The translations under genes and the position numbers were made by a program. This document shows, piece by piece, positions 6,761-52,181 of a DNA stretch of 64,000 nucleotides. This DNA comes from a virus, in the IMG/VR virus record IMGVR_UViG_3300031746_000003, positions 1 through 64,000 of that record; one strand, given 5' to 3'. Positions within the stretch are counted from its first letter, which is position 1; each line of letters begins with the position of its first letter. The notes below the pieces were generated by a model that searched no databases, was not told the origin of the DNA, and saw only the letters and a program-made list of their open reading frames with translations.

Positions 6761-7080
6761 CTGCCTTTGTATCCTTCGTGCAGCTGCTGCTTGAATGCAG
6801 GAGCTTTGGCAAAGTGTACTCGTAGGCGTACTGGAACGTCTACTACTATTGTTCCAGTATTCTGGCCCTTCTTGAAGTTGCCCTTCTTGAGCACGGCCCT
6901 CTTACCGCCTACCTCTGCCGTGAGCTTGAAGCGGCCTAGGCTATCTACGTAGGCCACCCCATCCTCCATGATGGTGTTCTTCAGCTCTTGGACGAAGGCA
7001 GCGGTAATGAGGGCGACCTGCTTTTTGTTTATTCCCAGGTCTGCAGCAACGGCTAGGTCCAGCTCAAGCTTCTTCTTCAC
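6667..7080 (-). CDS. HU/IHF-like DNA-binding protein
   Basis: The 137-residue product starts with GTG in a GTGA overlap with the polymerase stop. Residues 1-95 follow the HU fold: two N-terminal helices with 'INKKQVALITAAFVQEL', 'LGRFKLTAE', then a basic beta arm and 'VPVRLRVHFAKAPAFKQQL'. The tail past residue 100 is Lys/Ser/Pro-rich and overlaps the zinc-ribbon gene in another frame. HU-type proteins bend and compact DNA. Here it would assist replication or recombination. Confidence 0.78.
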   Translation of the reverse strand: MKKKLELDLAVAADLGINKKQVALITAAFVQELKNTIMEDGVAYVDSLGRFKLTAEVGGKRAVLKKGNFKKGQNTGTIVVDVPVRLRVHFAKAPAFKQQLHEGYKGRWTSSASTKTSIKKPWKSSQPKAAPSVAKRQ

Positions 7081-9020
7081 TTGGCTTCCATCCAGGATTT
7101 ACCACTACCGATATCCACCGTGAGTGGGACGGCCAGGTCTGAGAACATGGAGTGTTCCATCCACTCTTTGATCTCCACCTTAGCTGCCTCAACTGTATCC
7201 TTAGGACATTGGAATACTAGCTCGTCATGAATGGCCAGTAGTGGCCTTGCCCCATAGGTACCTTCTACGTCGGCTACGTCACACATGATCTGTGCCATCT
7301 TTGCCACGTCGGCAGCTGACCCTTGAATCTGCGTGTTCACGGCTACGCGCTCTCCCCTGTTTCGCTCATCACCACGATGAGAGAACAGCTCTGGGACACT
7401 ACGCCTGCGGCCTAGTACAGTGAAGGAGAAGCCAGTTTGCTCAGCTTCTTCTATGGCTGCAGCGTAGAACTGCTTAACTGCAGGGTACGTCTCGAAGTAC
7501 CGAGCTACCTTCTCTTCAGCTTCTTCTCTGTCACAGCCAATAGCTACAGCTAGCTTTTTAGTGCCCATGCCGTAGTTCAGACCGAAGCCAATAGCCTTAG
7601 CCGCCTTTCTGGCGTCTACACATTCCTTGAGGTACGGGGTGAACTCAGACGGGTCCATCTCGCCAGCCTTAACCTTCTTGTTCACTTTGGTAGCATTCTC
7701 TATATCGTCGTACGGGATGTTAAACATGAGTGACGCATTACCCATGTGAATATCCCAGTTCTTTAGGAACACGCCGATCATGCCCTCTTCTTCAGCTGCA
7801 GCGGCCAGTAGACGCATCTCTAGCTGTTGATAGTCAGCTGCTATCAGGCAGTCACCATCGTCAGCAATGAAGGCATCTCTGAGCTTCCACTTGTCGTTCT
7901 CCACAGTGGGGATGTTCTGCAGGTTGGGCCCCGAGCTAGATAGACGGCCTGTACGAGCTACGTCCTGGTTGAACCGTGTATGGATACGGTCAAACGGGTC
8001 CATGAGGTCATAGAGGTTGTCTAGGTAGGTGCCTTCCAGTTTAGACAGATCACGATGCTGCAGTATCAACCCTATTATGGGGATGTGCGCGTAGTACTTC
8101 AGAACGTCCTCATCAACAGAGTTCTTACGTACGCCCGTCTTACCACCCTTAGTCTGTTTAATAGACTTGAGTTTCAGCTCTTCAAAAAGTAGCTGCTCTA
8201 GCTGCTTAGCACTCTTTGGGTTAAAGAGCTTACCGCGCAGTTTAGAGATATCACGCTCTAGCTGTTCTAGGTCAGCACGAACGATAGGTCTGACCTTCTC
8301 TAGGCGCTCTCTATCTATCTTGATACCATTACGTTCGTTCTTCCAAAGAACCTTCGTGTACGGCACCTCTATCTTGTCGAACAGGTCCCATAGCGTAGCT
8401 ATCCTGGGTCCTGTGGTCTTGTACAAGCTGTGCGTTACTGCATCCTGTAGCTCTGCTTTTAGCTTGTTGTAAGCGCACCAGGTGCCCCAAGCGTCGTTGC
8501 TGGCGTACTCGACAAGGAGATTGAAGTTCTCCTTCTCTGCCCTGAGAATGACGTCAGAGGCGCTCACGCCCTTCTTCACTGATATCTTACCGAAGGTATC
8601 TTGGAAGTCTTTCCAACGCCAACCAAGGACGTGGGCTGCTATCTCCTTCAGACCATGTGGCCGGTCCTCATAAAGGAGGGAGTGCATCACCTGTATGTCA
8701 GCCAACCTACCCTGTATATTGATACCTACGTTGGCCAGGATATGCGTGTCGTACTTGGCGTTGGCGAAGATCCAAGTCCTAGTCTTACTAGCGAATACCT
8801 CTGCGAAGTAGGGCAGGGTAGAGGCATTGAGCGCCATCTTCCTACCAGCCCAAGCCATGGACCAGTAGAGAGGTATGTCCTTCCAGGTGACTAGACCGGT
8901 GGTCTCAGTATCGATAGCAATCTCTGGCTGGTCGTTAGCCTCAGCCACGAGTTTAGCTAGTCGTTCTGTATGCGTGTGATCGTAGTACTCAGCATCTGGA
9001 GTTTCTACATTCCATGCCAT
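7077..9020 (-). CDS. Family A DNA polymerase with 3'-5' exonuclease
   Basis: The 647 residues hold a complete proofreading domain (D37-x-E39; N87-x3-D91; Y172-x3-D176) and polymerase domain: motif A with D396 in AADYQQLEMR; motif B R471-x3-K475-x3-F479-x3-Y483-G; motif C H598-D-E600. 'SSSGPNLQNIP' (361-371) is also typical. There is no 5'-3' exonuclease domain, as is usual for phage replicative Pol A. Tyr at the Y483 position is the normal residue. The start codon follows an unusual leader in which a hairpin separates AGGAG from ATG. Confidence 0.96.
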   Translation of the reverse strand: MAWNVETPDAEYYDHTHTERLAKLVAEANDQPEIAIDTETTGLVTWKDIPLYWSMAWAGRKMALNASTLPYFAEVFASKTRTWIFANAKYDTHILANVGINIQGRLADIQVMHSLLYEDRPHGLKEIAAHVLGWRWKDFQDTFGKISVKKGVSASDVILRAEKENFNLLVEYASNDAWGTWCAYNKLKAELQDAVTHSLYKTTGPRIATLWDLFDKIEVPYTKVLWKNERNGIKIDRERLEKVRPIVRADLEQLERDISKLRGKLFNPKSAKQLEQLLFEELKLKSIKQTKGGKTGVRKNSVDEDVLKYYAHIPIIGLILQHRDLSKLEGTYLDNLYDLMDPFDRIHTRFNQDVARTGRLSSSGPNLQNIPTVENDKWKLRDAFIADDGDCLIAADYQQLEMRLLAAAAEEEGMIGVFLKNWDIHMGNASLMFNIPYDDIENATKVNKKVKAGEMDPSEFTPYLKECVDARKAAKAIGFGLNYGMGTKKLAVAIGCDREEAEEKVARYFETYPAVKQFYAAAIEEAEQTGFSFTVLGRRRSVPELFSHRGDERNRGERVAVNTQIQGSAADVAKMAQIMCDVADVEGTYGARPLLAIHDELVFQCPKDTVEAAKVEIKEWMEHSMFSDLAVPLTVDIGSGKSWMEAK

Positions 9021-20236: not shown

Positions 20237-20772
20237 CTCTTGAACAGCTAGTTGTAGAGACGCGCAAGGAGTTTCCTGACTTCGTTGTTAAGGCGAAGGT
20301 GAATAGCAAGTTGATGCTGCTCATCAACCGCTTCCTGCTCATCCTAACGTTCGGTGGGATGAAGACGTTCATGACTACGTACACCACTACGATGGGTAAC
20401 ACTGTGTACGTACCTAGCCAGTGGGCTCTGTGGACTGAGCAGTCTAAGGTGCGCATCTTGAGGCATGAGCGTATTCATATGCGCCAGGCTAAGAAGTACA
20501 CGCGACTTCTGTTTTCTTTTTTGTACCTGTTCGTGCCACTGCCAATAGGCTACGCGTACTTCCGAGCTAAGTTTGAGATGGAGGCCTACGAGGAGACCAT
20601 CAGAGCCGCATTCGAACAGGGTGGTATTAAGGCAGTAGAGGACTCGGAATTTAGAGCTCACATCATTAACCAGTTTACAGGCCCAGCGTACTTGTGGATG
20701 ATGCCAGATCGTGTGAAGATGTTCTCTTGGTACACCAAGACGGTGGCTAAGCTAGAGAGTGAAACCACATGA
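20233..20772 (+). CDS. Membrane protein with HExxH metallopeptidase-like motif
   Basis: The 179 residues contain H78-E79-R-I-H82, the zinc ligand and general base pattern of gluzincins, followed by a hydrophobic segment (about 91-110, 'RLLFSFLYLFVPLPIGYAYF') and the acidic stretch FEMEAYEE, whose Glu at 115-121 could supply the third ligand. An earlier hydrophobic stretch is at 27-41. It lies directly before the portal gene with a four-base overlap. A processing peptidase or a wall/membrane-acting virion enzyme are both possible, and activity is unproven. Confidence 0.68.
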   Translation: MTLEQLVVETRKEFPDFVVKAKVNSKLMLLINRFLLILTFGGMKTFMTTYTTTMGNTVYVPSQWALWTEQSKVRILRHERIHMRQAKKYTRLLFSFLYLFVPLPIGYAYFRAKFEMEAYEETIRAAFEQGGIKAVEDSEFRAHIINQFTGPAYLWMMPDRVKMFSWYTKTVAKLESETT

Positions 20773-22697
20773 GCTTTGTAGGCGGCGGGTTTGGCATAGG
20801 TACTTCCGGCGGCTCTGGAGCATCGCGCTTCTCCAGTACGCGTGGGCGTATCAATGGGTCACCGGTACAGGGTGTTAACTACCCTAGTCCGTTCTTCGAT
20901 GTCGCCCACACGTACCTGCCCGTCACGTTCAAGCAGATGTTCCGGTGGTGCCGGTACTACTTCTTAACGAATCCACTCATCAACGCCACGGTCTTTAAGC
21001 TCTCTGAGTACCCCATCACGGAGCTGGTTATTGACCATGAGCGTGCTGACGTAGCTGCCAGGTGGACTGAGTACATGCAGGACCACCTGAGGTACCGCGC
21101 ATTCCAGGTAGAGGTTGGTCTCGACTACCACTGTTATGGTAACGCCTTCGTATCCATAGCCTTCCCCTTCAAGAAGTACTTGAAGTGTTTGTCTTGTGGT
21201 AGCTCTGAGGAAGCGCAGAAAACTAGGGCACGTTGGACCTTCACCAACAACGCCTTCAGGTACAACTGCCCAAAGTGTGGGACCACCACAGAGGCTGAGG
21301 CGAAGGACGAGTACTTCAAGAACGCTAGTGGCATTCGGCTACTACGTTGGAACGCTGAGTATGTGGAGATCACGTACAATGAGGTCAGCGGTGAGTACAT
21401 CTACTTCTACACGATCCCTCCCACGCTACGTAATGACGTAGTGATAGGTAAGAAGGACGTAGTAGAGAGCACCCCGCAGGTGTTCCTACAAGCTATGCGT
21501 GAGGGTAAGGGAGTTGTCTTCTCGAAGGACAACTTCTTCCACCTCAAGCGCCCGACACTTGCACAGCAAGATCGTGGGTGGGGTATCCCACTGATTCTCC
21601 CGGTACTTAAAGACACTTTCTACCTGCAGCTAATGAAGAAGGCTCAGGAGGCGATTCTTCTTGAACATATTGTCCCTCTACGCGTGCTGTTCCCACAAGC
21701 TGGGTCTGGGTCCAGTGACCCGTACACAACTATCAATCTCGGGGAGTGGCGTGACCAAGTAGCTTCTGAGATTGGCCGTTGGCGTATGGACCAGAACTAC
21801 ATACCCATCATGCCTTTGCCTCTTGGTAACCAAACCATTGGTGGCGACGGTAAGGCCCTGCTGCTGACGCAAGAGATACAGCAGTGGAGTGAGCAGATCA
21901 TGGTGGGCATGGGAGTACCACGTGAGTTCCTCATTGGTGGTATGAGCTACGCTGGTACCAACGTCTCCATGCGTATGTTGGAGAACGCGTTCTTCGGCTA
22001 CATCCTGCGCCACAAGCAGATGGCTAAGTGGGTCATGAAGATGGTGTCTGGCTACATGGAATGGCCGGAAGCCAACATCCGCTTCAAGCCGTTCAAGATG
22101 GCTGACGACATTCAGCGCAAGGCTCTGATGCTGCAGCTGAACCAGGCACAGAAGATCAGTGACACTACCCTGCTAGCCGACTCTGACCTTAAGCAGGATG
22201 AAGAGAACGGCATCATGCTCCGTGAGACGGACATGAGAGTTGCTGCCACTAAGCAGCAGCAGTTGGCCATGGCTCAGATTCAGGGTGAGGTCCAGGTCAT
22301 CATGGCCAAGGCGCAGGTGAAAGCGCAGCAGGTAGCCATGGAAGCTCAACAGGGTGCTGTTGCTCCTGGTGAACCTGGTGAGGGCTTTGGCCAACAGGTA
22401 CAGAGCCCTATGAACGCCGGGCAGAGTTTGCAGCAGGGTGGGCAGCAGCAAGCTGGTTTGGACATTAACCAGATGGCACAGAGCTACTCTAAGCAGATTC
22501 AATCAATGCCTCCAGGTGACCAAGAGATGGCGATGCAGAACATCACTACTCAGAGCCCAGAGCTCGGGCAGCTAGTTAGGCAGCTGGTAGCACAAGATCG
22601 AAAGAGCGGGCAGCAGGGTACTCCACCAGCACCTGGTGTTGACATGCGCCCTATGCCTGAGCAGCGTGCTCCACGGCGTGCTGCTGGTATGGTGTAG
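20769..22697 (+). CDS. Portal protein with a zinc-ribbon insertion
   Basis: The 642 residues fit a portal: a Gly/Ser-rich N-terminus, 'FRWCRYYFLTNPLINATVFK' (58-77), a long central domain with 'GMSYAGTNVSMRMLENAF', and a Gln-rich helical C-terminal third (about 470-640) matching the barrel and tail of portal rings. A four-Cys ribbon (C140-x2-C143, C167-x2-C170) is inserted in the early clip-side region. The portal is the dodecameric DNA entry channel at one capsid vertex. The identification rests on pattern and on its place in the virion block. The terminase lies 19 kb away. Confidence 0.78.
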   Translation: MSFVGGGFGIGTSGGSGASRFSSTRGRINGSPVQGVNYPSPFFDVAHTYLPVTFKQMFRWCRYYFLTNPLINATVFKLSEYPITELVIDHERADVAARWTEYMQDHLRYRAFQVEVGLDYHCYGNAFVSIAFPFKKYLKCLSCGSSEEAQKTRARWTFTNNAFRYNCPKCGTTTEAEAKDEYFKNASGIRLLRWNAEYVEITYNEVSGEYIYFYTIPPTLRNDVVIGKKDVVESTPQVFLQAMREGKGVVFSKDNFFHLKRPTLAQQDRGWGIPLILPVLKDTFYLQLMKKAQEAILLEHIVPLRVLFPQAGSGSSDPYTTINLGEWRDQVASEIGRWRMDQNYIPIMPLPLGNQTIGGDGKALLLTQEIQQWSEQIMVGMGVPREFLIGGMSYAGTNVSMRMLENAFFGYILRHKQMAKWVMKMVSGYMEWPEANIRFKPFKMADDIQRKALMLQLNQAQKISDTTLLADSDLKQDEENGIMLRETDMRVAATKQQQLAMAQIQGEVQVIMAKAQVKAQQVAMEAQQGAVAPGEPGEGFGQQVQSPMNAGQSLQQGGQQQAGLDINQMAQSYSKQIQSMPPGDQEMAMQNITTQSPELGQLVRQLVAQDRKSGQQGTPPAPGVDMRPMPEQRAPRRAAGMV

Positions 22698-24612: not shown

Positions 24613-24648
24613 GCTGTAACCTTTCATAGGGTGGATTCCCTCATCTCT

Positions 24649-24677
24649 ATTATCCCCAAAAACAGCCTAAAATTGAG
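24649..24677 (-). promoter_or_regulatory. Minus-strand promoter P4 (methyltransferase cassette)
   Basis: CTCAAT (24677-24672), 17 bases, then GATAAT (24654-24649) on the minus strand. The core CAATTTT...GGGATAATAG is identical, with identical spacing, to that at 39918-39946. The methyltransferase start is about 37 bases downstream. Confidence 0.68.
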
Positions 24678-26020: not shown

Positions 26021-27243
26021 CAGAGGTACTTGGACGCATCACTGAGTCCAACCTTAAGAACGACTTTGGCGGCTACGGCTTCTAGGCTCGCATGGTCTTT
26101 ACGCCCCAGCTTCTTGTTTATCAGAATCTTCACAGCTATACCTGCGATGTCTGTCAGGCCAGCCTCTGTCATGTCGAACAAACGTTCCCATGCTAGGGCA
26201 GCTAGGCGTACACGCTCACTCTTATCGGTAGTCCCCACCACCAGGGCCGTGAAGCTTCCACAGACTGCGATGGACCTATCCAACCTCTTGGAGTCTACCT
26301 TCCAGCCCTTCTCTAGGACGTCAAGGGGATCTGGGAGGTCTGCATCTGCTTCCCACGCGGCCCACTCTGTAGACGCACCCTCACCTACCAGCCCTTGCAC
26401 GAGGATGGTCTCTAGCTGCTTAGGCAGACCTAGACAACGCACTGTGGCGATGGCTCGGCCAGCCATGTACCAAGTGCGTGGTGAAGGCCATGGCAACCCA
26501 GCAGCAGGGCTACCAGGGGCTGGCTGACTGTGGAAGACACTGTTGTTACTGCGCATGAACGCATAGAGGGAGCCTTTTACAGCAGCCCAGTGCCTGTTCC
26601 AGTTCTTCTTAACCAGATCTTCCCCGTTAGTTATGGGGGTTACTGCCACGTCGTCGTCCTCTGACATGAGGTACTCACCCCACTTGTCCACAGGCATCAC
26701 ACCAATATTGAAGTGTGCCATCCTGTTGGCGAACGCAGCTTCTAAAGCCCAACCACCTGCTGCGTGCTCTGGTGGGTTCGCTGCTAGTAGGATTCGGATG
26801 TTATTGGACATCTTCATGTCCCCTACCTTGCGCTCGTACACGGTACTCATAGCAGCACCCTGGACAGCCGGTGGTGCACAGCTGGCCTCATCAATGACCA
26901 GAACACCAGAGCCCACCTCCATAAGCTTACGGATGGCGGGCATCATGCACTCTATCGTGATCCCCTTGGGCCCAGGAACCAGCACACCTGAGAAGTCCTC
27001 AGGCTGCTTAGTAGCCGGGTACACCACCTCGCAGTGCAGCCCAGCCTTGGCTGCACCCAGTTCTATTCGCCCAGTCTTAGCGATGCCGCTAAGCCCCCAG
27101 AAGATGCAGGGCAAACCCCACATGCAGTCTGGACTATTGGGGTCGCCTCTAACCGGTACCAGCAAGGAGCAGTACACGATATCCTCGAAGTACGGCTCTA
27201 CGTCCGGCAGACTGTCCTTCTTCACTACTGTATCTTTGCCCAT
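26020..27243 (-). CDS. MoxR-type AAA+ ATPase
   Basis: The 407-residue protein has Walker A G50-LSGIAKT57, Walker B ending D118-E119 ('GVLVIDEASCAPPAVQ'), sensor 1 N156 ('ILLAANPPEH') and an arginine finger candidate at R174 ('FANRMAH'). These features and the adjoining VWA gene place it in the MoxR/CobS group, whose hexamers remodel or insert cofactors into protein complexes. The family is known in phages, often labelled CobS/CobT-like. The substrate here is unknown. The start lies in a TAATG overlap with the upstream Cys-rich gene. Confidence 0.87.
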   Translation of the reverse strand: MGKDTVVKKDSLPDVEPYFEDIVYCSLLVPVRGDPNSPDCMWGLPCIFWGLSGIAKTGRIELGAAKAGLHCEVVYPATKQPEDFSGVLVPGPKGITIECMMPAIRKLMEVGSGVLVIDEASCAPPAVQGAAMSTVYERKVGDMKMSNNIRILLAANPPEHAAGGWALEAAFANRMAHFNIGVMPVDKWGEYLMSEDDDVAVTPITNGEDLVKKNWNRHWAAVKGSLYAFMRSNNSVFHSQPAPGSPAAGLPWPSPRTWYMAGRAIATVRCLGLPKQLETILVQGLVGEGASTEWAAWEADADLPDPLDVLEKGWKVDSKRLDRSIAVCGSFTALVVGTTDKSERVRLAALAWERLFDMTEAGLTDIAGIAVKILINKKLGRKDHASLEAVAAKVVLKVGLSDASKYL

Positions 27244-28700: not shown

Positions 28701-31700
28701 ATGGCCTATCTAGACCACGCAGAGGCGTATCGACACTTCAGGGACCGTACCCTTGAGGGGATAACTGAGTACTTTCCAGTACACGGTAAAATCCAGAGCC
28801 TTCATCTAGACCATCTAGAGGTGGACGAGGGAAAGCTAGGTCCTGACGATATACGGGCACAGTTAGCTGCGAAGAACTCAGGAGTAAGTTGGGCTGCCCC
28901 GGTCTACGCGACGATGTCGCTAAAGAACAATGCAACTGGTCATGTCATAGACAAGAAGAAAATACGTATTGCTGAGGTACCCATGGTTACTCAGCGGTAC
29001 AGCCAGATCATTGACGGGCAAGAGTACCAGGTAGGCAACCAGTGGCGCTTGAAGCCAGGTGTCTACGTAAAGCGTGGTAGGTCTGGTGAGCTGGCAGCCA
29101 AGTTTAACGTCCCTAACAAGTCGTCATTCGACATATCGTTTAAGCCGGACACAAAGTTATTCATGATAAAGCGTGGTAGCTCTGAGGCTATCAACGCGTA
29201 CCCCATAATGAAGACTATGGGGGTCACTGACGACCAACTGTCTAAGAGCTGGGGTCATGACGTTTTCATAGCTAACAAGAACGCTCGGGGCACACAAACA
29301 GCAGTAGACCGGTTCTTCAAGGTAGACAAGAAGCGCGCACCGGTGGACAAAGAAGAAGCTGAGAAGCACGTATACGACGTACTGACGGCATCCATTCTGC
29401 GTCCTGAGGCCACCAGTATATCTTTAGGTAAGCCGTTCTCTAACGTGACCGGAGAAGCGCTACACTTAGCAACTCAGAAGATACTTAAGGTACAGGCTGG
29501 TCACCCAGAGGATGATCGTGATTCCCTGGTGTTTAAGGATCTACATACAGCTGGTGACTTCGCCTATGAGAAGATCACAAACTGGAAGACTAAGAATGCC
29601 ATTACTGGCAAGTTCGCACGTAAGGTCAACACGGCTACTGGCATACGTGACGTTGTAAAATTCGATACGTTTAACAAGCCTATTAGAGAGACCTTTACCA
29701 AGAACAGCGCAGCTGAGGTACCCGACCAGATAAACCCAGTAGAGATGATGGCTGCCGCTCAGCAAACAACCATCATGGGTCCAGGTGGTATTCAGAGCAC
29801 CCAGCAGGTTAACGAGGAAGCAAAGTTTATCAATCCTTCTAGCCTTGGGTTCATAGACCCTGTGCGTACGCCCGAAGGTGAGAAGACTGGCATCAATTCT
29901 CACTTACCTATGGGGGTACGTAAAGTCGGGCATGAGGCGAAGATACCTTTGTATAACCTACGCTCTCATCAGACAGAGATGATTGGGCCAGGTATCTTCG
30001 TTAACTCTAGGGTCGTCTTGCCAGATCAGGTGTCGTGGAAAGACGGCAAGCCGCAAGCTAGGTATGCCAGCACTAAGATGTCTGGACCTAAGAACGCTAT
30101 TGAAGAGGGTAAGTTCTCTAGCGCTGACTATGTACTAAAGCACCCGTCGCAGCTGTTCAACATCACCACTAACTTGATTCCCTTTCTAGGGAACAACTCT
30201 GGTAATCGTGCGACGTATGCCACCTACCACATAGAACAAGCCATACCTCTTGTGCATCGTGAAGCACCGTTGGTTCAATCAGCTACGGGAGCGAGCAAAG
30301 AAGGCATCAGAACTTTTGAAGAGATAGCTGGTAAGAAGGCTAGCCACGTAGCCCCAGTGGCTGGTCATGTGCACTCTGTTAAGGATGACGCTGTAGTGGT
30401 GCGTGATGCCGCTGGTAAGATGCATGAGGTACAGCTGTACCGGTACTTCCCACTTAATGACCCTAAGAGCTACCTGCACTCTACCCCAGTAGTGAAGGTG
30501 GGGGACAAGGTGGCTCAAGGCCAGGTGGTGGCTGATACTAACTTCACAAAGGGTGGTGTGCTCGCCCTGGGTACAAATTTGCGTGCTGCCTACCTACCTT
30601 ACCGTGGGTACAACTTTGAAGACGGTGTGGTCATCAGCGCAACAGCCGCCAAGAAGTTAACTAGTGAGCACATGCACAAGCCGACTATTCGGCTTGACGA
30701 TAAGATCGTAACATCCCCTGAGCACTTTCAAGTAGAGCACCCTGGCTCTTTTACGCAGGAGCAGTTCAAGAAATTGGACAGCTCTGGTGTTGTCAAAGTT
30801 GGTCAAACAGTTACTACTGGTGACCCACTTGTCATAGCCATGCGGCCGTTCAACATGAAGGACAGGACCGGGGCATCAGCTATCCGGCGTAGTCTTTCTG
30901 GCTCACACACGGATGTTAGTCTCAGGTGGACATCCGACCACCCAGGTGAGGTAGTCGGGGTGCACAGGAAAGACAAGGACAGCGTAGTTCATGTACGCAC
31001 TCTCGAACCTATGCAGGTGGGGGACAAGATAGCTGGTAGGTACGGGAACAAGGGTATCGTTACGCTCATCGTTCCTGACCATAATATGCCCCATACCAAA
31101 GATGGTAAGCCCACAGAGATTTTGCTTAATCCCTCCGGTGTTCCTGGTCGTATGAACATTGGCCAGGTGTTAGAGACGGCTGCTACAAAGGTAGCTAAGA
31201 AGACTGGTAAGCCCTACTTAGCGCAGAGCTTCGCCCCGTTAGACCAATTGGAGCAGGTGAAGCGCGAGCTACACACTCATGGGATAAGTGACACGGAAGA
31301 GTTGCATGATCCCATATCTGGTAAGTCATTAGGCACAGCTCTAGTGGGGCAGCAGCACATACTAAAACTAGCTATCCAGATAGATAAGAAGATATCTGCA
31401 CGTTCTGGTATGGGCCTACCAGGTACTGGGCATGACCTTGAGACTTACGACATGAATCTCATGCCGGTGTCCGGGGCTAAGACTGGTGGTCAAAGTATTG
31501 GTATGCTGGGGCTCAATGCGTTACTCGCGCATGGGGCTAAAGCCAACATCCGAGAGATGCAGACTTGGAAGAGCGAGGGCGTAGACCCACAGACTAATCC
31601 AAGTAAGCGGTGGGAGTCACAGCACCTGGATGTGTGGGGTGCTATCCAAAACGGAACACCGCTCCCAACTCCAAGGCCCACGTTTGCTTTTCACAAGTTC

Positions 31701-34700
31701 ACAGAGATGTTGAAGGCTGCTGGTGTCAACATCGAGAAGAAGGGTAATCAGTTTCAGCTGAGCCCGCTTACCGACAAGCAGGTACTGTCGATGTCCAAGG
31801 GTGAGCTGCCTAGGCCTATGGACCTTACGCATGCCAAGCTAGACGACAATGGTGAGCCTAAGCCCAAGACAGGTGGTCTGTTTGACCCTAGGTTGACTGG
31901 TGGGCACGGCGGTAAGAACTGGACACACATCAAGCTAGCTGAGCCTGTGCCTAACCCGGTATTCGAGGGGGCTATCCAGAAGGTACTTGGGCTCTCTAAA
32001 ACTGACTATCAGTCCATAGTCTCAGGTGACAAAGCCATCAGTAGGTCTGGAGCTATAGTAGCGCTGGGGGCCATAGGAGCAGACACTGGTGGTGCCGGTA
32101 TTAAGAGGTTGCTGCAGCAGATAGACGTTAAGAAGGACTTGAAAAAAGCAGAAGCTGAGTTGGGGTCTATCAGCATACCTAAAGGAACTACGTCATCTGG
32201 CATCACGCAGAAGGTCGACAAGCTTGTAAAGAAGGTGAAATACCTTCGTGCTCTTGACGCCTCTGGTGTTCACCCAGCAGACGCTTATGTGCTGCACAAC
32301 CTGCCAATACTACCGCCAGCACTGCGTCCAGCATCAGTACTGCCTGACGGTACTATTAGTTGGGCGGATATGAATGGTCTTTACTCTCAGTTTGCTCAGG
32401 TGAATGAGCAGCTAAAAGACCCGGTGATCAGCAAGAACCTTTCTGACACTGCTAAGAAGCAGCTACGTGCTGACCTGTACGATGGTATGCGGGCTATCGT
32501 GGGGCAAGGGTCTGAGGAGAGTGACCAGAAGGGTGTGCTGTTACAGATACACGGGTCTCAGCCTAAGAAAGGGTTCTTCCAACAGACCCTACTTAGCCGC
32601 AAGCAAGACTTGTCTATGCGCTCGGTTATCGTACCAGAGCCATCTCTCAGCATCGACCAGGTGGGTTTACCTAGGTCTAAAGCTACCACCCTGTTCAGGC
32701 CATTCGTAGTTAGGAAGTTGGTTGAGATCGGTGCTGCTAGGTCGCCAATACAAGCGCAGGAGTTGATAGCTAAGAAGGACCCTAGTGTAGACCGAGCACT
32801 AGACTTAGTGATGGAGGAACGTCCAGTTCTTATGAAGCGTGACCCCGCGCTACACAGGCACAGCGTCATGGCGTTCAATGCCAAAGCAGTGCCCGGTAGA
32901 GCTATACAGATTCATCCACTAGTTACTACGGGGTACAACGCGGACTTTGACGGCGATACGATGAGCGTGTACGTCCCTATCTCTAACGAGGCGGTGGCCG
33001 AAGCTCGTAAGATGATGCCGTCTAACCATCTCTTCAATGAGGCCACTGGGCATGTCATGTTCGTACCAACGCTGGAGAGCGCACTAGGTATGTACAAGAT
33101 GAGCTTGGTGAACAAGAAGGTTGGTAACCAGTCTTTCGCTAAGACATCAGATGCACTGAAGGCCGTACAGTCAGGAACGCTGCACATCAATGACTTGGCG
33201 ACTATTGCCGGCACCAAGACTACTGCTGGCAGAGTTTTGCTAGCAGACTCCCTACCCAAGGAGATGCAGAAAAAGATCTTGGAAGACCACTCGCACATAC
33301 TAGACGAGAAGAATAGGTCAGCCCTCTTTACTCATCTAGCCAAGAACCACAGTGGTAACTACGGCGCAGTGGCAGACAAGCTTAAAGACCTAGGCACTGG
33401 TATGTCCATGGGGGTAATTACTCTCCCACACCCGGATGGCTCAGGTCCAGCTGTTATAAAGTCAGCTGAGAACTACAGCAAAGATAGGTTCCACATATCG
33501 GTAGGTGCGCACAGCTTGTCTTTGAAAGATATTGAGACTGACAGAGCTGTGAGAGACCCCATACTCAAGGCAGCACAAAAAGAGGTAGATGCTATCAACA
33601 GCAGCACGTCTATACCGACCGCCGACAAAGAGCGAAGAGCCATACTGGTATGGACTACAGCAGCAGACAAGCTGAAGAAAGACCATCTAGCCTCAGACTT
33701 CCAAAGCAATTTGCTAACTATGCAGCGGGCTGGTGTTAAGCCCGGCTGGACACAATATAAGCAGTTGGTGCTAGCTCCGCTATTAGTAGCAGATGCCTCT
33801 GGGAAGATCGTGCCGGTACCCATTCGAAGGTCTTACTCAGAAGGCGTTGATGTTGGTGAGTATTGGACCCAGATGCAGGGTGCCCGTGCTGGTAACCTCA
33901 AGAAGGTCCAAGAGGTTAGAGAGCCTGGGTTCTTTAGTAAGAAGCTAGTAAACTCTACTATGAGCCTAGTGATAAACGTCGATGACTGTGGCACCCACAA
34001 TGGTATAGCGTTACCAGCTACTAGTAATGATGTGCAAGATCGCACGTTAGTTAAAGACTTCTCAGCTAAAGGAATGACTATACCGGCTGGTACTCTTCTC
34101 AGCCCGGACATGATCAGTCAGATCAGAGCAGCTGACAAGGACGCCCATGTAGTGGTGCGTAGTCCCCTTAAGTGCGAGCAGGAGAAGGGTTTATGTCAGA
34201 AGTGCACAGGCCTATCAGCTACTGGGGTACCTTACCCAATTGGTACAAACATAGGACTGTTGTCTGCCCAGGCTCTTGGTGAGCGGTCTGTTCAGCTTAC
34301 TATGAAGGCGTTCCATACTGGTGGCGTCGTAGCCGGTGGCGCTAAGACACTGTCCGCTTTCGCGAAGGTAGACCAACTCACAAAGCTACCAGATGTCATA
34401 CCGGACTCGGCATCGTTAGCGATGCACTCTGGTAAAATAGATAAGATCGAGAAGGACCAGACAGGTGTTAAGGTTTGGATCGGCGGGCATGCCCACCATG
34501 TTGGTAAGGACCGTACCGGTATGCCGCTACACGAAATCCTAGCGCACTCACAAGAGATGGAAGGTTTTATCCCGTGGAAAGCGCCGAAGGTAGGAGAGCA
34601 TGTAGAGGCAGGGGAGTCGTTATCAGACCCTAACCGCACCACAGTTAATCCTCACCAGCTCTACAAGGCCACAGGGAGTATAGAACGAGTACAGAACTTC

Positions 34701-35153
34701 TTAACTAAGGAGTTGCATGGCTCGTACTCTTCTGAAGGTATCCGTAGGCAGCACGTAGAGTTGCTGGTCAAGTCTATGAGTAACTTGACCAAGGTACGTG
34801 ACCCAGGAGATTCCGAAGGGATCATCAAGGGAGAGTTTCACCCCACGTCTGTTATCAAGGCACTCAACGCGAAGCTTGTTAAAGAGGGGAAACAGCCAGT
34901 GGAGCACTCACCAGTACTGATGGGTGTTGACATGATGCCACTTAAGGTACAGGAAGATTGGATGGCCAAGATGTACCACAACCGTCTGAGAGAAACGGTT
35001 ATGGAGGCTGCCGCTACTGGAGCTCGCTCAGACATCCACGGTATTCACCCGATACCTGGGGCTGCCTACGGAGCGGAGTTTGGCTACACGGAAGCACAGA
35101 AGTTGGAACCTGGGCTACACCATCTGAAGGACGTACCGCGCTACGCGTACTGA
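28701..35153 (+). CDS. Single-chain multisubunit RNA polymerase (beta-beta' fusion)
   Basis: One 2150-residue frame carries both large subunits of a cellular-type RNA polymerase. Beta motifs: FIDPVRTPEGEKTG from F384; YLPYRGYNFEDG from Y631 with E640-D641; G774-DKIAGRYGNKG with K776 and K784; 'NPSGVPGRMNIGQ'; and the beta C-terminal 'GGQSIGMLGLNALLAHGAKA'. Beta' motifs: 'LPILPPALRP'; GYNADFDGD with Mg-binding D1415/D1417/D1419; a zinc site from C1825 (C-x6-C-x2-C); and QALGERSVQLTMKAFHTGG from Q1857 (bridge/trigger region). The junction lies near residues 960-1010. No alpha, omega or sigma gene is in the window. At 2150 residues it is shorter than E. coli beta plus beta' (about 2750). Its place among virion genes suggests it may be packaged. 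Confidence 0.95.
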   Translation: MAYLDHAEAYRHFRDRTLEGITEYFPVHGKIQSLHLDHLEVDEGKLGPDDIRAQLAAKNSGVSWAAPVYATMSLKNNATGHVIDKKKIRIAEVPMVTQRYSQIIDGQEYQVGNQWRLKPGVYVKRGRSGELAAKFNVPNKSSFDISFKPDTKLFMIKRGSSEAINAYPIMKTMGVTDDQLSKSWGHDVFIANKNARGTQTAVDRFFKVDKKRAPVDKEEAEKHVYDVLTASILRPEATSISLGKPFSNVTGEALHLATQKILKVQAGHPEDDRDSLVFKDLHTAGDFAYEKITNWKTKNAITGKFARKVNTATGIRDVVKFDTFNKPIRETFTKNSAAEVPDQINPVEMMAAAQQTTIMGPGGIQSTQQVNEEAKFINPSSLGFIDPVRTPEGEKTGINSHLPMGVRKVGHEAKIPLYNLRSHQTEMIGPGIFVNSRVVLPDQVSWKDGKPQARYASTKMSGPKNAIEEGKFSSADYVLKHPSQLFNITTNLIPFLGNNSGNRATYATYHIEQAIPLVHREAPLVQSATGASKEGIRTFEEIAGKKASHVAPVAGHVHSVKDDAVVVRDAAGKMHEVQLYRYFPLNDPKSYLHSTPVVKVGDKVAQGQVVADTNFTKGGVLALGTNLRAAYLPYRGYNFEDGVVISATAAKKLTSEHMHKPTIRLDDKIVTSPEHFQVEHPGSFTQEQFKKLDSSGVVKVGQTVTTGDPLVIAMRPFNMKDRTGASAIRRSLSGSHTDVSLRWTSDHPGEVVGVHRKDKDSVVHVRTLEPMQVGDKIAGRYGNKGIVTLIVPDHNMPHTKDGKPTEILLNPSGVPGRMNIGQVLETAATKVAKKTGKPYLAQSFAPLDQLEQVKRELHTHGISDTEELHDPISGKSLGTALVGQQHILKLAIQIDKKISARSGMGLPGTGHDLETYDMNLMPVSGAKTGGQSIGMLGLNALLAHGAKANIREMQTWKSEGVDPQTNPSKRWESQHLDVWGAIQNGTPLPTPRPTFAFHKFTEMLKAAGVNIEKKGNQFQLSPLTDKQVLSMSKGELPRPMDLTHAKLDDNGEPKPKTGGLFDPRLTGGHGGKNWTHIKLAEPVPNPVFEGAIQKVLGLSKTDYQSIVSGDKAISRSGAIVALGAIGADTGGAGIKRLLQQIDVKKDLKKAEAELGSISIPKGTTSSGITQKVDKLVKKVKYLRALDASGVHPADAYVLHNLPILPPALRPASVLPDGTISWADMNGLYSQFAQVNEQLKDPVISKNLSDTAKKQLRADLYDGMRAIVGQGSEESDQKGVLLQIHGSQPKKGFFQQTLLSRKQDLSMRSVIVPEPSLSIDQVGLPRSKATTLFRPFVVRKLVEIGAARSPIQAQELIAKKDPSVDRALDLVMEERPVLMKRDPALHRHSVMAFNAKAVPGRAIQIHPLVTTGYNADFDGDTMSVYVPISNEAVAEARKMMPSNHLFNEATGHVMFVPTLESALGMYKMSLVNKKVGNQSFAKTSDALKAVQSGTLHINDLATIAGTKTTAGRVLLADSLPKEMQKKILEDHSHILDEKNRSALFTHLAKNHSGNYGAVADKLKDLGTGMSMGVITLPHPDGSGPAVIKSAENYSKDRFHISVGAHSLSLKDIETDRAVRDPILKAAQKEVDAINSSTSIPTADKERRAILVWTTAADKLKKDHLASDFQSNLLTMQRAGVKPGWTQYKQLVLAPLLVADASGKIVPVPIRRSYSEGVDVGEYWTQMQGARAGNLKKVQEVREPGFFSKKLVNSTMSLVINVDDCGTHNGIALPATSNDVQDRTLVKDFSAKGMTIPAGTLLSPDMISQIRAADKDAHVVVRSPLKCEQEKGLCQKCTGLSATGVPYPIGTNIGLLSAQALGERSVQLTMKAFHTGGVVAGGAKTLSAFAKVDQLTKLPDVIPDSASLAMHSGKIDKIEKDQTGVKVWIGGHAHHVGKDRTGMPLHEILAHSQEMEGFIPWKAPKVGEHVEAGESLSDPNRTTVNPHQLYKATGSIERVQNFLTKELHGSYSSEGIRRQHVELLVKSMSNLTKVRDPGDSEGIIKGEFHPTSVIKALNAKLVKEGKQPVEHSPVLMGVDMMPLKVQEDWMAKMYHNRLRETVMEAAATGARSDIHGIHPIPGAAYGAEFGYTEAQKLEPGLHHLKDVPRYAY

Positions 35154-35154: not shown

Positions 35155-36489
35155 ATGAGCAAAGACATAGCCGAGAAGTACGACCAGAAGGATGGTCTCA
35201 GTCGCCAAGGTGGTCGTACATTCCCGTTCTACCCAGCTGGTGGTGTTGGTGCCTTCGTGCATGAAGGAAAGATCATCAACATAAACATGACGAACTGGAC
35301 TGTGGATTTCGTCACACAGTTTGACTACAAGTTCTACTTAGGTGTGCAGGTAAGCTCACCATACCTACACTCTAATACTGGTGAGGGCTTCAGTGCATTT
35401 CCAGAGGTTGGGGCTAAGTGTCTACTCTGCATTCCCAGTGATGGCCCACCACCATTCATCCTGGCGTACATCATGCCGATGGAGACCATAGGTGATACAT
35501 CTTCCGAAGAGTCACCAGCTGGTACGGCCTCGAATGGTGGTGACATACCGAGCACTACCGCAGCTACGTTCTCTGGTGGTCGCAGTAAAGCGAAGCCAGG
35601 TGACATAACTGTGCGAGGCCGGGATGGTAACTTCGTAACGCTACACCGTGGTGGTGTCCTACAGATAGGCGCTACAGAGTTGGCGCAGCGAATATACATT
35701 CCTCTCGACAACCTGATTACAGACATCTCCGAGAACTACCACCACCATAATACAGCTGGGTCAATCAATTGGGGTATACAGCAGGGGGCTGCTACTTCTG
35801 ACCATGCCACGTACCACAAGCAGACCTACCGGTTGTTCGCAGAGGACCAGAAGGCCACCATACGCGTGCTGTCTAGCGGTAACAACGATGACTATCTAGG
35901 GGAGCCTACGGGAGACGCAGGCCAGACGTCTAATCTGAACCAGCTCAACATCGGCATCCCAAAGGTTAGCCCTATCGTTTACGAAGTGGTTGTCTCACCA
36001 GAGCACTTTGATGCTGAGAGTGGTGACCCAGATGATAAGGCCAAGGAGTCTAGTGTCCTTAGGTTCTTCTTCGACAAGCAGGGTGGAGCATTTCTACGTA
36101 GTGAGTCTAGCGTACTGCTCGCTATAGAGAAGAAGCTGAAGGTGACTGTGAAGGGGGACATTCTGCTAGAGACTAAAGGGAGTTTCTCTCTTACAGCCGC
36201 TGGTAGGATGTCTATCAATGGGTCTACTGGGGTAGCTATAGATTCAAACGGCAAGGTAGTGTTTAAGGGTGGTAAACAGCCCATCGGTAGGGTGGGTGAC
36301 ACTGTTATAGTTCCAATACCTGCTGCTACCTTAATGGTTACTAACCTAGGTCCTATCATGGGTAACCTAAACCCTGACTTGGCGACAATTACAATACTTC
36401 CAGGCGCACTACAGCTGGGGATGACTCAAGTAGTCCCAGTAAACATCAATGCGATTATCTCTACAGGTAATCCGGATATACTGGCCTAA
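35155..36489 (+). CDS. Baseplate hub/central spike protein (gp5/gpV-like)
   Basis: The 444-residue protein starts two bases after the polymerase stop. An OB-like N-terminal half ('LGVQVSSPYLHSNTGEGFSAF' and 'GAKCLLCIPSDGPPPFILAY') is followed by a Gly-rich strand region and a C-terminal segment of short regular beta repeats ('KLKVTVKGDILLETKGSFSL' and 'GRMSINGSTGVAIDSNGKVV') as in beta-helical membrane-piercing spikes. 'QPIGRVGDTVIVPIP' at the end resembles a PAAR-type tip strand. No lysozyme insert is visible. Confidence 0.7.
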   Translation: MSKDIAEKYDQKDGLSRQGGRTFPFYPAGGVGAFVHEGKIININMTNWTVDFVTQFDYKFYLGVQVSSPYLHSNTGEGFSAFPEVGAKCLLCIPSDGPPPFILAYIMPMETIGDTSSEESPAGTASNGGDIPSTTAATFSGGRSKAKPGDITVRGRDGNFVTLHRGGVLQIGATELAQRIYIPLDNLITDISENYHHHNTAGSINWGIQQGAATSDHATYHKQTYRLFAEDQKATIRVLSSGNNDDYLGEPTGDAGQTSNLNQLNIGIPKVSPIVYEVVVSPEHFDAESGDPDDKAKESSVLRFFFDKQGGAFLRSESSVLLAIEKKLKVTVKGDILLETKGSFSLTAAGRMSINGSTGVAIDSNGKVVFKGGKQPIGRVGDTVIVPIPAATLMVTNLGPIMGNLNPDLATITILPGALQLGMTQVVPVNINAIISTGNPDILA

Positions 36490-39820: not shown

Positions 39821-39917
39821 TATGCTGTGGCTCCTTTCCAGTGCTTCGCACTTGGTTATCGTTACGTTGAGGGGCACAAATCCCTCGCCTTGTGCATTGA
39901 TGTTCGGCATCAATACT

Positions 39918-39946
39918 ATTATCCCTAAAAAGACTTGAAAATTGCC
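39918..39946 (-). promoter_or_regulatory. Minus-strand promoter P5 (GC-rich cassette)
   Basis: GGCAAT (39946-39941), 17 bases, then GATAAT (39923-39918) on the minus strand. It shares the CAATTTT...GGGATAATAG framework with P4. The start at 39820 is about 90 bases downstream. An in-frame ATG lies only a few bases from the expected transcript start. Confidence 0.68.
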
Positions 39947-41341: not shown

Positions 41342-41588
41342 ACACCAGGCGTAACGGTTTCTTCTCTAGGCGTACTCCGCCCACAGTCCAGCCGTTATCC
41401 TTTGCACGTTCTCTGATGTACGCGTGGATGGGCTTCTTAGCCTTAGCCGGGAACTCATAGTTCATATACAAGTTCACCTCCACGCAATCGTCATGCATGG
41501 TAACTTCCCCGTGTGTGAAGTGATCTCCAGCCCTCTGCAACGACCACAGTAACTCTTTCCCCCACTCTTCCAGCTGATTGAACGACAT
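41292..41588 (-). CDS. Antisense gene between two terminase-region genes
   Basis: The frame gives 98 residues from ATG 41588. Its sequence has clear protein character: amphipathic 'FNQLEEWGKELLWSLQRAGD', a beta segment 'DDCVEVNLYMNYEF', and 'KKPIHAYIRERAKDNGWTVG'. It fills the 245-base stretch that has no plus-strand gene. Its start codon shares the CATG with the start of the terminase, and its end overlaps the preceding plus-strand gene. No ribosome binding site is obvious. Function unknown. Confidence 0.58.
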   Translation of the reverse strand: MSFNQLEEWGKELLWSLQRAGDHFTHGEVTMHDDCVEVNLYMNYEFPAKAKKPIHAYIRERAKDNGWTVGGVRLEKKPLRLVFTCLPGHGQVPRRTQA

Positions 41589-43350
41589 GGCCGCAGAACC
41601 AGCTCTAGACGTATGGGGAGACGACGATGAGTTGTGGGACCCAGAGCCAGCGTTAGAGGAAGATCCGTTAGTCATAGAGCACGCTGTAAAAGCTTTAACA
41701 GATATACCCAGTGCTATGCCATCTCAGTTTACTGAGTTTGCATTCATGATGCCCACTGAGAGGGATAATAGCCTGGGGTTTGATAGGTTCTCTTTTGATA
41801 AGCGGCCACATCTGAGAAGGATGTACGACACGCCAGCTAAGCGTGTCCTTCTATTCTGTGGTCGGCAGGTTGAGAAGAGCACACTGCTTGGTAACATAGC
41901 CCTCTGTTACACCTGCATGGTGCCGTCGTTCAAGACGCTCTATGTCTCTCCGTCTGCATCACAGACAAAGACGTTCTCTAACGACCGTATCAAGGAGCCT
42001 ATCGAGACCAGCCCGATACTAAAGAAGTTCACTACTACCATGCTCTCTCAGAACATCTTGGAGAAGCAGTTCGTGAACCGCTCTAAGATAACTATGCGGT
42101 ATGCCTTCCTTAATGCTGACCGCGTTCGAGGTATTCCTGCCTGGCTGCTAGAGCTCGATGAGTTTCAAGATATTTTATCTGACAGCATCCCCATCATTGA
42201 GCAGTGTCTTTCTCACGCACCTGAGCGATGGAAGCGCTTTATCTACGCTGGTACCCCTAAGAGCCTAGACAACACGCTGGAGGAGTACCGCTCTAAATTC
42301 TCTACTCAGGGAGAGTGGGTAGTACCCTGCGATAGACACGGTGGTGAGGGCGGTCGATACTGGAACGTGCTGGGTGAGAAGAACATAGGTAAACGCAGCT
42401 TGGTGTGTGAGAAGTGCCACAAGCCAATCAATCCACAGCACCCAGATGCACAGTGGGCCAACATGGTGAAGGAGGCGGCCTTTGAAAGTTACCGCATCCC
42501 TCAGCTCATGGTTCCGTGGAAACCATGGGATGAAATCTACCTAGACTATGAGCGCTACCCTAGGGCTCGTTTCTATAACGAGGTCCTTGGTATCTCGTTT
42601 GATTCAGGTGTACGCCCACTAACACTGGGGCAGGTTCGGGATGTCTGTAATCCTGAAGTGCACATGGCTGATGCTGACAAGTACCGTTCTAGGTCGTACG
42701 CTCAGCCGTTCTTTGCCGGTATTGACTGGGGTACTGGTGAGGGCAGTAGCTATACGGTCATCGTTATCGGCACGTACATAGACATGAAGTTCCGGGTCAT
42801 CTACGCCCATCGGTTTACTGGAGAGGACGTAGACCCGACGCCGCAGCTTGAGAAGATCTGCGAACTCATCGACTTCTTCAACATCAAGATCATAGCTTGT
42901 GATTACGGCATGGGCTTCGGTATGACCGACCCATTGATACGCAAGTACGGTATCCAACGCATCCACAAGTTCCAGTACTTAGGTAAGGCTAAGAAGAAAG
43001 TGGAGTGGGACGGGCGTATCCGTAGGTGGAAGGTTCACCGGACTGAGGTGATGAGCGACATCTTCAGTGCCATCAAGCGGAAGCAGCTCGAGTTCCCTCG
43101 CTTTGAGGACTTCGGTAGTCCTTACGCGGAGGACATGATCAACATCTTCAGCGAGTACAGCGATGGTCAAAAGATGATCTTGTACAAGCACGCTACCGAC
43201 AAACCGGATGACACATTCCATGCGATTGTGTTCATGCTGCTTGGCTCAATGATCCTCAGGCCTCGCCCGGATATCATTGCTCCTATGCGTGAGGACCCAC
43301 GTACCGGGAAGATAATAGACACTTACTCAGGCCCCACAAATCAGGGCTAG
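41587..43350 (+). CDS. Terminase large subunit
   Basis: From ATG 41587 the protein has 587 residues; a TTG at 41578 is also open. The ATPase has the Walker A-like G92-RQVEKST99, with Glu where Gly is usual, and Walker B L-E-L-D191-E192. The RNase H-like nuclease has D380 ('GIDWGTGEG'), D439 ('IIACDYGMG') and the D541-D542-x-F-H545 region. A zinc-like C-x2-C lies in the link between the domains ('LVCEKCHKPINPQH'). TerL drives DNA into the prohead and cuts it. It is placed between the small-subunit candidate and the head genes. Confidence 0.9.
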   Translation: MAAEPALDVWGDDDELWDPEPALEEDPLVIEHAVKALTDIPSAMPSQFTEFAFMMPTERDNSLGFDRFSFDKRPHLRRMYDTPAKRVLLFCGRQVEKSTLLGNIALCYTCMVPSFKTLYVSPSASQTKTFSNDRIKEPIETSPILKKFTTTMLSQNILEKQFVNRSKITMRYAFLNADRVRGIPAWLLELDEFQDILSDSIPIIEQCLSHAPERWKRFIYAGTPKSLDNTLEEYRSKFSTQGEWVVPCDRHGGEGGRYWNVLGEKNIGKRSLVCEKCHKPINPQHPDAQWANMVKEAAFESYRIPQLMVPWKPWDEIYLDYERYPRARFYNEVLGISFDSGVRPLTLGQVRDVCNPEVHMADADKYRSRSYAQPFFAGIDWGTGEGSSYTVIVIGTYIDMKFRVIYAHRFTGEDVDPTPQLEKICELIDFFNIKIIACDYGMGFGMTDPLIRKYGIQRIHKFQYLGKAKKKVEWDGRIRRWKVHRTEVMSDIFSAIKRKQLEFPRFEDFGSPYAEDMINIFSEYSDGQKMILYKHATDKPDDTFHAIVFMLLGSMILRPRPDIIAPMREDPRTGKIIDTYSGPTNQG

Positions 43351-51056: not shown

Positions 51057-52181
51057 ATGAGCGTCCCGGCACGTATGCTGAATGAGCTCTTTACCCAGAA
51101 GCTTTCATCGGCTGAGGGTAAGGAAAAGATCGCGGAGTATGGTGGCTCGTACATTCGAGACCGTCTTCGTGAGGTTAGCTTTGCGCGGAAGATCCTTCCG
51201 CCTGAGCAGGTCACACGGGCGGATTGCCAGCGGTCGGTTAATCACGACACGCTAGTGAAGATCGTCGATGTTGAGCCGAAGAGCCGAGCGATGTCGATCA
51301 CGTTCCGTGGACAGCCCACGGCACGGTTCATTCGCGGGGCGAAGGCCGAGATCGCGTTCTACACGATCAGCTCTGAGATCTTCCAGAAGACAGAGCAGGA
51401 GCTTCTCGCCTACGAGATGCCCATCACCAAGATTATCGAGGAGAACTCGGTAAAGGATATCCAGGAGATTGAGGACCGTGAGTTCCTCATCCACATTGAG
51501 GCGGCCTGCCAGGCGCTACAGACAGAGGCCAACGGTGGCGTGTCTACGGCGCTCAACTGGACGAACATCAATGCGGCTTCCGTGGTCGAGTTCTCGATCA
51601 TCAAGGGTGAGCTAGCTCGTACGGCTGGCGTCGATGACGCCACTGTCCGTCCGATCCAGCGCCCGGATGTGGTCAACCTGTTCAAGCTTCTTGACGGGAA
51701 CCGTCTCCGTGCCGAGCGCATCCTCATGACGGAGGTCGACTGGGACGACATCCTTCAGTGGACCCTTGAGGACTTCGGTGATCGCATGCAGTCCGAGACT
51801 GCAGTTGACGGCTACAAGTACAACACGCTGCTCGGTCGTCCGTACATCCGTACGATCAAGACGGACATCCTCCGTCGCGGCAACGTGTACGTGTTCACGC
51901 GTCCGGAGTTCTTCGGTAAGTTCTACGTGCTTAACAACACGAAGTTCTACATCGACAAGATCGCGAACACGATCACCTTCCAGGCCTGGGAAGACATTGG
52001 TATGGGCATCATCAACATCGCGTCTGTTCGTAAGCTAGAGCTCTACTCTGGTGACGCGAACCCGACGACGAATGCTGACTCGCTGCTCGCCAACTTCATC
52101 CCAACGGATGAGGACCAGCTCGGCGCGGTGAACAACCGTGTTGACCAGGGCCTCAAGTTCCCGCAGGTCAGCCAGTTCTGA
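51057..52181 (+). CDS. Major capsid protein
   Basis: The 374-residue protein fits a HK97-fold capsid subunit. It has an N-terminal helix ('RMLNELFTQKLSSAEGKEKI'), an E-loop-like strand pair ('RAMSITFRGQPTARFIRGAK'), a long spine helix region with 'DIQEIEDREFLIHIEAACQA', the A-domain 'RAERILMTEVDWDDILQWTL', and C-terminal strands 'VYVFTRPEFFGKFYVLNNTK'. Its codon use is the most C-ending and uniform in the window, as expected for the most abundant protein. AGGAGAAG precedes the start. Two hairpins follow the stop. The fold was not computed. Confidence 0.82.
   Translation: MSVPARMLNELFTQKLSSAEGKEKIAEYGGSYIRDRLREVSFARKILPPEQVTRADCQRSVNHDTLVKIVDVEPKSRAMSITFRGQPTARFIRGAKAEIAFYTISSEIFQKTEQELLAYEMPITKIIEENSVKDIQEIEDREFLIHIEAACQALQTEANGGVSTALNWTNINAASVVEFSIIKGELARTAGVDDATVRPIQRPDVVNLFKLLDGNRLRAERILMTEVDWDDILQWTLEDFGDRMQSETAVDGYKYNTLLGRPYIRTIKTDILRRGNVYVFTRPEFFGKFYVLNNTKFYIDKIANTITFQAWEDIGMGIINIASVRKLELYSGDANPTTNADSLLANFIPTDEDQLGAVNNRVDQGLKFPQVSQF

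Follow-up and report, generated by a model that had tools for sequence, protein, structure and literature searches.

A fused beta-beta' RNA polymerase with a FliA-like sigma factor in a widespread lineage of uncultured phages: a candidate two-polypeptide virion holoenzyme

As judged from sequence comparison, a single gene in the 64,000-nucleotide stretch that comprises positions 1 to 64,000 of the IMG/VR virus record IMGVR_UViG_3300031746_000003 (hereinafter the window; the complete record, G000, spans 120,344 bp) encodes an RNA polymerase core of the bacterial type, catalytically complete and contained in one polypeptide, in which the RpoB-like beta part is directly followed by the RpoC-like beta' part. 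The explanation that we favor, and to which we would assign a probability of roughly 0.7, is that this fused core operates without alpha and omega subunits, in combination with a sigma factor encoded by the same phage, and that the two would be packaged into the virion, injected and start phage transcription. It seems fairly probable as well, if somewhat less so, that such a two-polypeptide holoenzyme, an alpha- and omega-free core plus a FliA-like sigma, is co-packaged and injected throughout a widespread lineage of ~185-kb phages, in which the fusion would be ancestral and the phages of the type of Salmonella phage Arash would have later re-broken beta'.

The fused polymerase gene

Strong profile matches extend along the entire chain. 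The Pfam domains come in the order of the cellular subunits, namely Rpb2_3 (residues 341-402), Rpb2_6 (551-902, 2.1e-58), Rpb1_1 (1017-1241), Rpb1_2 (1301-1439, 2e-31) and Rpb1_5 (1715-2041, 6.1e-21), and the best NCBIfam models, PRK09603 (2.6e-159) and PRK14844, themselves represent natural beta/beta' fusions, the score of 532 bits being far under the curated cut-off of 5372. In the alignment with the Escherichia coli subunits, the beta/beta' boundary maps to residues 1016/1017, and all catalytic residues examined are kept: K1065/K1073, E813/D814, R678 and R1106 of E. coli beta correspond to K776/K784, E640/D641, R503 and R817 of the fused protein, and in beta', D460/D462/D464 and R425 correspond to D1415/D1417/D1419 (the NADFDGD motif) and R1380, the trigger-loop residues M932/H936 to M1868/H1872, and the second zinc site, C814/C888/C895/C898, to C1763/C1825/C1832/C1835. 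The hallmarks of the RpoB/RpoC core, that is, the bridge helix and trigger loop, the DxDxD aspartates and the two beta lysines, are all in place. A preliminary description of the window had already read RpoB followed by RpoC, full length and in one frame, with the GDK/GNKG lysines, NADFDGD and the trigger region, and each of these elements is borne out by the alignment.

The same alignment shows neither the N-terminal zinc site of beta' (C70-C88) nor the large lineage-specific insertions of E. coli, which accounts for the smaller size of the fused protein. The clamp helices and the flap, the elements on which sigma factors dock in bacterial RNA polymerases, are recognizable and bacterial-like. 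AlphaFold models of residues 440-1560 and 1290-2150 (predicted local distance difference test scores, pLDDT, of 84.7 and 81.8, respectively) match solved bacterial beta and beta' structures. In the comparison with the nearest relative, at 80% amino-acid identity, the synonymous sites are saturated (synonymous divergence, pS, 0.70) and the nonsynonymous divergence is low (pN, 0.13), so that the whole frame is under purifying selection. The rifampicin pocket is changed (H526 to A, R529 to Q, S531 to T, R540 to T and N568 to K), and transcription by the fused enzyme is therefore predicted to be rifampicin-resistant.

A separate observation concerns window positions 31761-31940 (residues 1021-1080), where the synonymous identity to one relative, L012, is 0.86 vs 0.39 overall. 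An RNA element at the beta/beta' junction was considered and seems less likely, given that the high-identity tract is common to L012 only and not to other relatives; the tract probably reflects local, recent recombination.

Distribution and history of the fusion

Could the fusion be an artefact of assembly, or simply a copy of host genes? An alignment-guided scan of IMG/VR yielded 312 relatives of the fused polymerase. Among the best 80 of these, one unbroken beta-beta' open reading frame (ORF) is found in 72 loci, counting frames that cover the whole query or, in one locus cut at its start, all the sequence present; most of the other loci are interrupted by contig ends. The best-segment identity among the fused relatives goes down to 36%, and several of their records are 183-199 kb long. 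By this count of reading frames, an unbroken beta-beta' chain is the norm across a large lineage of uncultured phages. Some bacteria do carry fused rpoBC genes: natural fusions are seen in bins assigned to Omnitrophota, TA06, Vermiphilus and others (L149, L150, L152, L154, L156 and L158), and the fusion has therefore arisen repeatedly in cells. Nevertheless, the same fusion recurs in many independent phage contigs with phage genes on both sides, which leads us to reject an assembly artefact or chimera, and the fused polymerase is not nested among bacteria in either of the two trees that we built, which disposes of a host rpoBC copy; the chance that either of these accounts for the gene we consider to be negligible.

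In both trees (FastTree, 73 taxa; IQ-TREE, 31 taxa and 1951 columns; both without an archaeal outgroup), a single clade unites the fused phages (IQ-TREE support, 99/97), with the Arash-type phages, which include Vibrio phages D69 and D148, as its sister group (100/100), and L145, a divergent fused phage contig within a Bacillus bin, comes next (91/81). In IQ-TREE, all bacteria lie across a 100/100 branch from all phage sequences used. A similar phage contig (54%) was found in a Deltaproteobacteria bin. Otherwise, the 80 best loci retrieved from 84,980 species genomes include no conspicuous phage-type copy, a scarcity that would fit virulent phages. Two split relatives that are phage-like by BLAST, L004 and L251, fall among bacteria in the tree and were not used further for comparison; no relatives were retrieved with L004 beta' as the query of a scan.

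In Arash and in Vibrio phage D69, one gene encodes beta plus the N-terminal part of beta' and a second gene encodes the remainder of beta', with the cut corresponding to residues 1503/1504 of the window protein and a C-terminal part of 606-609 aa by alignment. The enzyme is unbroken in L145 and throughout the fused clade, and beta and beta' are still joined in Arash; the simplest history would thus be that the fusion came early and that beta' was cut later in the Arash line. The Arash genes named beta and beta' are really a fused beta-beta'N gene plus a beta'C piece. The cyanobacterial gamma model stops matching the window protein at residue 1498, close to the Arash cut, and a split after the double-psi beta-barrel (DPBB) domain is common to cyanobacteria and jumbo phages (PMC7598289).

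Breaks and insertions of other kinds are seen among these polymerases as well. About nine genes separate the two polymerase genes of Arash (130093-141261), and its family A DNA polymerase, whole in the window phage, is also split (gp152/gp154). The Arash-type enzymes of L240 and L250 come in three pieces (~1130, 380 and 608 aa), and the beta part of the enzyme in Vibrio phage D148 (L255) is interrupted by a homing endonuclease gene. The fused polymerase of L016 (10001-19750) harbors three intein-like inserts (348, 351 and 401 aa, with LAGLIDADG/Hom_end domains) at sites equivalent to window residues 392, 1419 (immediately C-terminal to NADFDGD) and 1872 (in the trigger loop). Such inserts are present also in L051, L064, L082, L084, L085 and L089, the other sites being 777, 786, 1418 and 1872, and occupy the most conserved active-site motifs of the fused polymerase.

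The sigma partner and the case for packaging

The preliminary description saw no homologue of alpha, omega or sigma and left promoter recognition to an unknown partner. As regards alpha and omega, it was correct: in 14 records, there is no match to alpha (PF01193) and none above the cut-off to omega (PF01192). As regards sigma, it has to be revised, since the record encodes a FliA/WhiG-like sigma, conserved in relatives, which was missed because the gene lies outside the window (Table 1). A Pfam search of the G000 record gave no match to sigma region 2 and one of only 0.009 to region 4, and it is this weak match that led to the gene. The protein matches Sigma70_r3 at 8.7e-9, above the Pfam cut-off, the FliA and WhiG models of NCBIfam at 5e-9 to 9e-9 (FliA_WhiG, 8.9e-9) with a region-4 stretch at residues 186-246, the NCBIfam scores being under the cut-offs, and SigA (2e-5) and FliA in the PDB. 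As assigned from these matches, it is a divergent FliA/WhiG-type member of the sigma70 family with regions 2, 3 and 4. Orthologues are found in 18 of the 20 records with a fused or Arash-type core, and the other two, G007 (170,766 bp) and G009 (150,234 bp), may be incomplete; in Arash, the match (11907-12335) falls inside gp10 (11892-12596). It is conceivable that the fused core instead employs a host sigma (or host alpha and omega) and that the phage sigma redirects the host RNA polymerase, considering that the clamp helices and flap resemble those of bacteria and that many phage-encoded sigmas probably bind the host enzyme (PMC7598289). The joint occurrence of sigma and core across nearly all these records and the presence of both orthologues in Arash particles speak against such an arrangement, which we deem improbable.

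The particles of Arash are the main source of evidence for packaging. Both parts of the split polymerase, as well as a sigma, were detected in the virion proteome of this cultured phage: Gp206 accounts for 3516 spectra, the most detected and above the major capsid protein, Gp216 for 1210 and the sigma Gp10 for 467 (PMC10585845). By our own arithmetic, this translates into ~2.3, ~2.0 and ~2.0 spectra per residue, which is compatible with similar amounts of the three proteins, on a coarse measure by which capsid and portal differ only 3-fold. Packaging, which the preliminary description had put forward as a possibility, gains plausibility from this proteome of a relative. The location of the polymerase gene among virion genes is as that description had it, with portal, baseplate-type, terminase and capsid genes around; a portal gene is upstream of the polymerase in the window phage, in Arash (gp204, two genes upstream) and in L145, where we read the gene directly upstream as portal. 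Portal, terminase, capsid, polymerase and the virion sigma, as well as further structural genes, are all common to Arash and the window phage.

We therefore propose the following scenario. The fusion would tether the two large subunits and so replace alpha in its assembly role, which is how the core could work without alpha and omega; the phage sigma would dock on the clamp helices and flap that the core has kept; both proteins, produced late, would be packaged into the virion, and their injection alongside the DNA would start the transcription of phage genes. The first targets would most likely be the replication genes on the minus strand, which holds the genes for DNA polymerase, primase, helicase and a RecA-like protein. 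In this chain of events, we infer the sigma-core pairing, the early role and the assignment of promoters, and, by analogy with Arash, the packaging of the window-phage polymerase itself.

A -10-like motif, TTTTGGGGATAATAG, found post hoc, precedes several minus-strand genes in G000. In the form TTTT[GA]GGGATAATAG, it occurs on the minus strand at 24647 and 39916 in the window and at 107104, 107736, 84454 and 108688 in G000, and in many cases a short inverted repeat, for example GTAGTGAGGGAATCACTAC, comes after it, as a potential 5' hairpin. Arash has 31 copies of GGTATAAG, 22 of them no farther than 150 nt ahead of a gene on the same strand (21 of the 22 on the minus strand); an extended version, GGTATAAG[TA]AAnGTA, stands ahead of minus-strand genes (L140-L143), and one exact GGGGATAATAG is located near gp207c. 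An obvious -35 element is absent from both the G000 and the Arash motifs, no copy of the G000 motif was detected around the RNA polymerase gene in most other fused phages, and a comparable motif was not obtained in G011 and G010. These motifs could be either promoters of the virion enzyme or host sigma70 promoters.

Several considerations weigh against the scenario of a packaged holoenzyme. The virion location is transferred from Arash, the polymerase of which is split and only ~30-32% identical to the fused protein; the Arash authors allow for carry-over of abundant infection proteins, and DNA primase and ligase were detected in the particles too (PMC10585845); a distance of 65 kb separates the sigma and polymerase genes; Arash encodes another sigma, gp196, in addition to Gp10; and the promoter-like motif of G000 is also compatible with a host sigma70 -10 element. 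The polymerase could then be a non-virion enzyme that is made after infection by the host RNA polymerase and transcribes middle or late genes, with its presence in Arash particles due to carry-over: the proteome, at 116 proteins, includes replication and nucleotide enzymes, and the G000 motif resembles a -10 element that the host RNA polymerase could read. What is hard to reconcile with this possibility is that Gp206 has the most spectra of all, with similar spectra per residue for Gp10 and Gp216, and that the gene belongs to a virion neighborhood with the portal upstream in Arash and L145 too. Furthermore, each of 15 records contains one beta' DPBB gene and therefore no virion/non-virion polymerase pair of this type, unlike the phages that possess such a pair. 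All things considered, a purely post-infection role appears to us rather unlikely, and we prefer packaging and injection of the core with its sigma.

Table 1. Coordinates of the polymerase, its landmarks, the sigma gene and neighboring features (window positions unless G000 is indicated)
Feature	Position	Strand	Basis or remark
Fused beta-beta' RNA polymerase gene	28701..35153	+	ATG start, 2150 aa, single ORF, internal stops 0
Beta (RpoB-like) part, residues 1-1016	28701..31748	+	E. coli junction mapping; Rpb2_3 and Rpb2_6
Beta' (RpoC-like) part, residues 1017-2150	31749..35150	+	Pfam, alignment; predicted fold of residues 1290-2150 similar to T. thermophilus beta'
Flap region (approximate), part of sigma-docking surface	30834..30959	+	Aligned with E. 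coli beta 885-930; divergent but present
GDK...GNKG, catalytic lysines K776 and K784	31023..31055	+	E. coli alignment; invariant
Clamp (coiled-coil) helices, residues ~1217-1275, expected docking site of sigma region 2	32349..32525	+	Aligned with E. coli beta' 258-314
NADFDGD catalytic aspartates, residues 1413-1419	32937..32957	+	E. coli alignment
Second zinc site, C1763/C1825/C1832/C1835	33987..34205	+	E. coli alignment
Trigger-loop helix motif with M1868 and H1872	34278..34325	+	E. coli alignment
FliA/WhiG-like sigma, 247 aa	G000:99906-100649		Outside the 64-kb window; Pfam, NCBIfam and PDB matches
Portal protein, orthologue of Arash gp204	20769..22697	+	31.7% identity, E 3e-91
Baseplate-type gene directly downstream of polymerase, orthologue of Arash gp238	35155..36489	+	PHROG baseplate assembly 0.0048; phmmer 1e-4
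Terminase large subunit, orthologue of Arash gp1	41578..43350	+	PHROG 675 2.6e-57; PF05876
Major capsid protein, orthologue of Arash gp226	51057..52181	+	E 2e-39; no Pfam match
Family A DNA polymerase, minus-strand replication module	7077..9020	-	PF00476 6e-110
Promoter-like motif GGGGATAATAG	24647..24657	-	Upstream of minus-strand gene; kept in L012
Promoter-like motif AGGGATAATAG	39916..39926	-	Upstream of minus-strand gene; kept in L012

Among other genes of the window, positions 54506-56956 in the structural region encode an 816-aa protein with an N-terminal ferritin-like domain (PF00210, 3.9e-13), and a minus-strand gene at 24713-26020 combines a DUF2201 metallopeptidase-like domain with a VWA-like one; its neighbor at 26020-27243 has no Pfam match.

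Comparison with known polymerases

The fusion, which had been described as unusual, is indeed rare in described phages but not unique, considering that viruses with single-chain polymerases and bacteria with fused rpoBC are known. In the literature searched, outside of which most subscription journals remain, the present lineage is not described, and fused phage beta-beta' is mentioned only for crAss-like phages and other diverged families. If our interpretation is correct, this would be, as far as we know, the simplest sigma-dependent bacterial-type polymerase, with one core chain and one sigma; furthermore, given that the clamp, flap and trigger loop are kept without alpha and omega, the question of what alpha and omega are for would become testable, and so would the packaging and injection of a sigma-dependent enzyme.

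The closest known system is that of Salmonella phage Arash ('Arashvirus') and Vibrio phages D69, D148 and D181, which share with the window phage the joining of beta to the N-terminal part of beta', as well as baseplate genes in addition to the other virion genes discussed above. In Arash and D69, beta' is cut and its C-terminal remainder is placed in a second gene, whereas the window enzyme is an unbroken, single ORF. The Arash paper calls the products beta and beta' subunits and the phage an orphan (PMC10585845); under the scenario outlined here, this orphan would gain a home, tied to hundreds of uncultured genomes.

The mReC phages (Weinheimer and Aylward 2020, PMC7481178) likewise encode RpoB and RpoC homologues with NADxDGD. 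Their capsids matched PF07068 and their terminases PF03237, these markers having been scored in only part of the 97 contigs (PMC7481178), whereas the window phage has a terminase of PF05876. None of the 15 fused or Arash-type records has PF07068, which does occur in Cobetia phage Carin-5, Yersinia phage GN1 and Rhizobium phage TM30, all with a separate beta' gene. The mReC paper mentions fusion only for crAss-like phages (PMC7481178).

The virion RNA polymerase of phiKZ and AR9 also consists of bacterial-type beta and beta' without alpha and omega (PMC7598289), and a virion role is what we suggest for the window enzyme. The phiKZ/AR9 enzyme is made of at least five polypeptides, with beta and beta' spread over several genes and no recognizable sigma homologue; the window polymerase, by contrast, is one chain with a sigma-family partner. 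Both double-psi barrels reside in one polypeptide, as they do here, in gp66 of the crAss-like phage phi14:2, gp96/gp64 of P23-45, YonO and QDE-1, and some of the single-chain, two-barrel polymerases are located in the virion (PMC10770324). Those enzymes comprise a separate, highly diverged clade (PMC10770324), whereas the window protein aligns to RpoB and RpoC over nearly its full length; no crAss-like phage is among the 40 tblastn matches listed, of 57. The bacterial rpoBC fusions (PRK09603, PRK14844) have the same order and junction as the window protein, which is ~700 aa shorter and is not nested among bacteria, and the phage and bacterial fusions come out as convergent. Placed among all these systems by its sequence, the window enzyme is like a bacterial sigma-dependent polymerase and is neither a host copy, nor a split enzyme of the phiKZ/AR9 kind, nor a member of the crAss/YonO clade.

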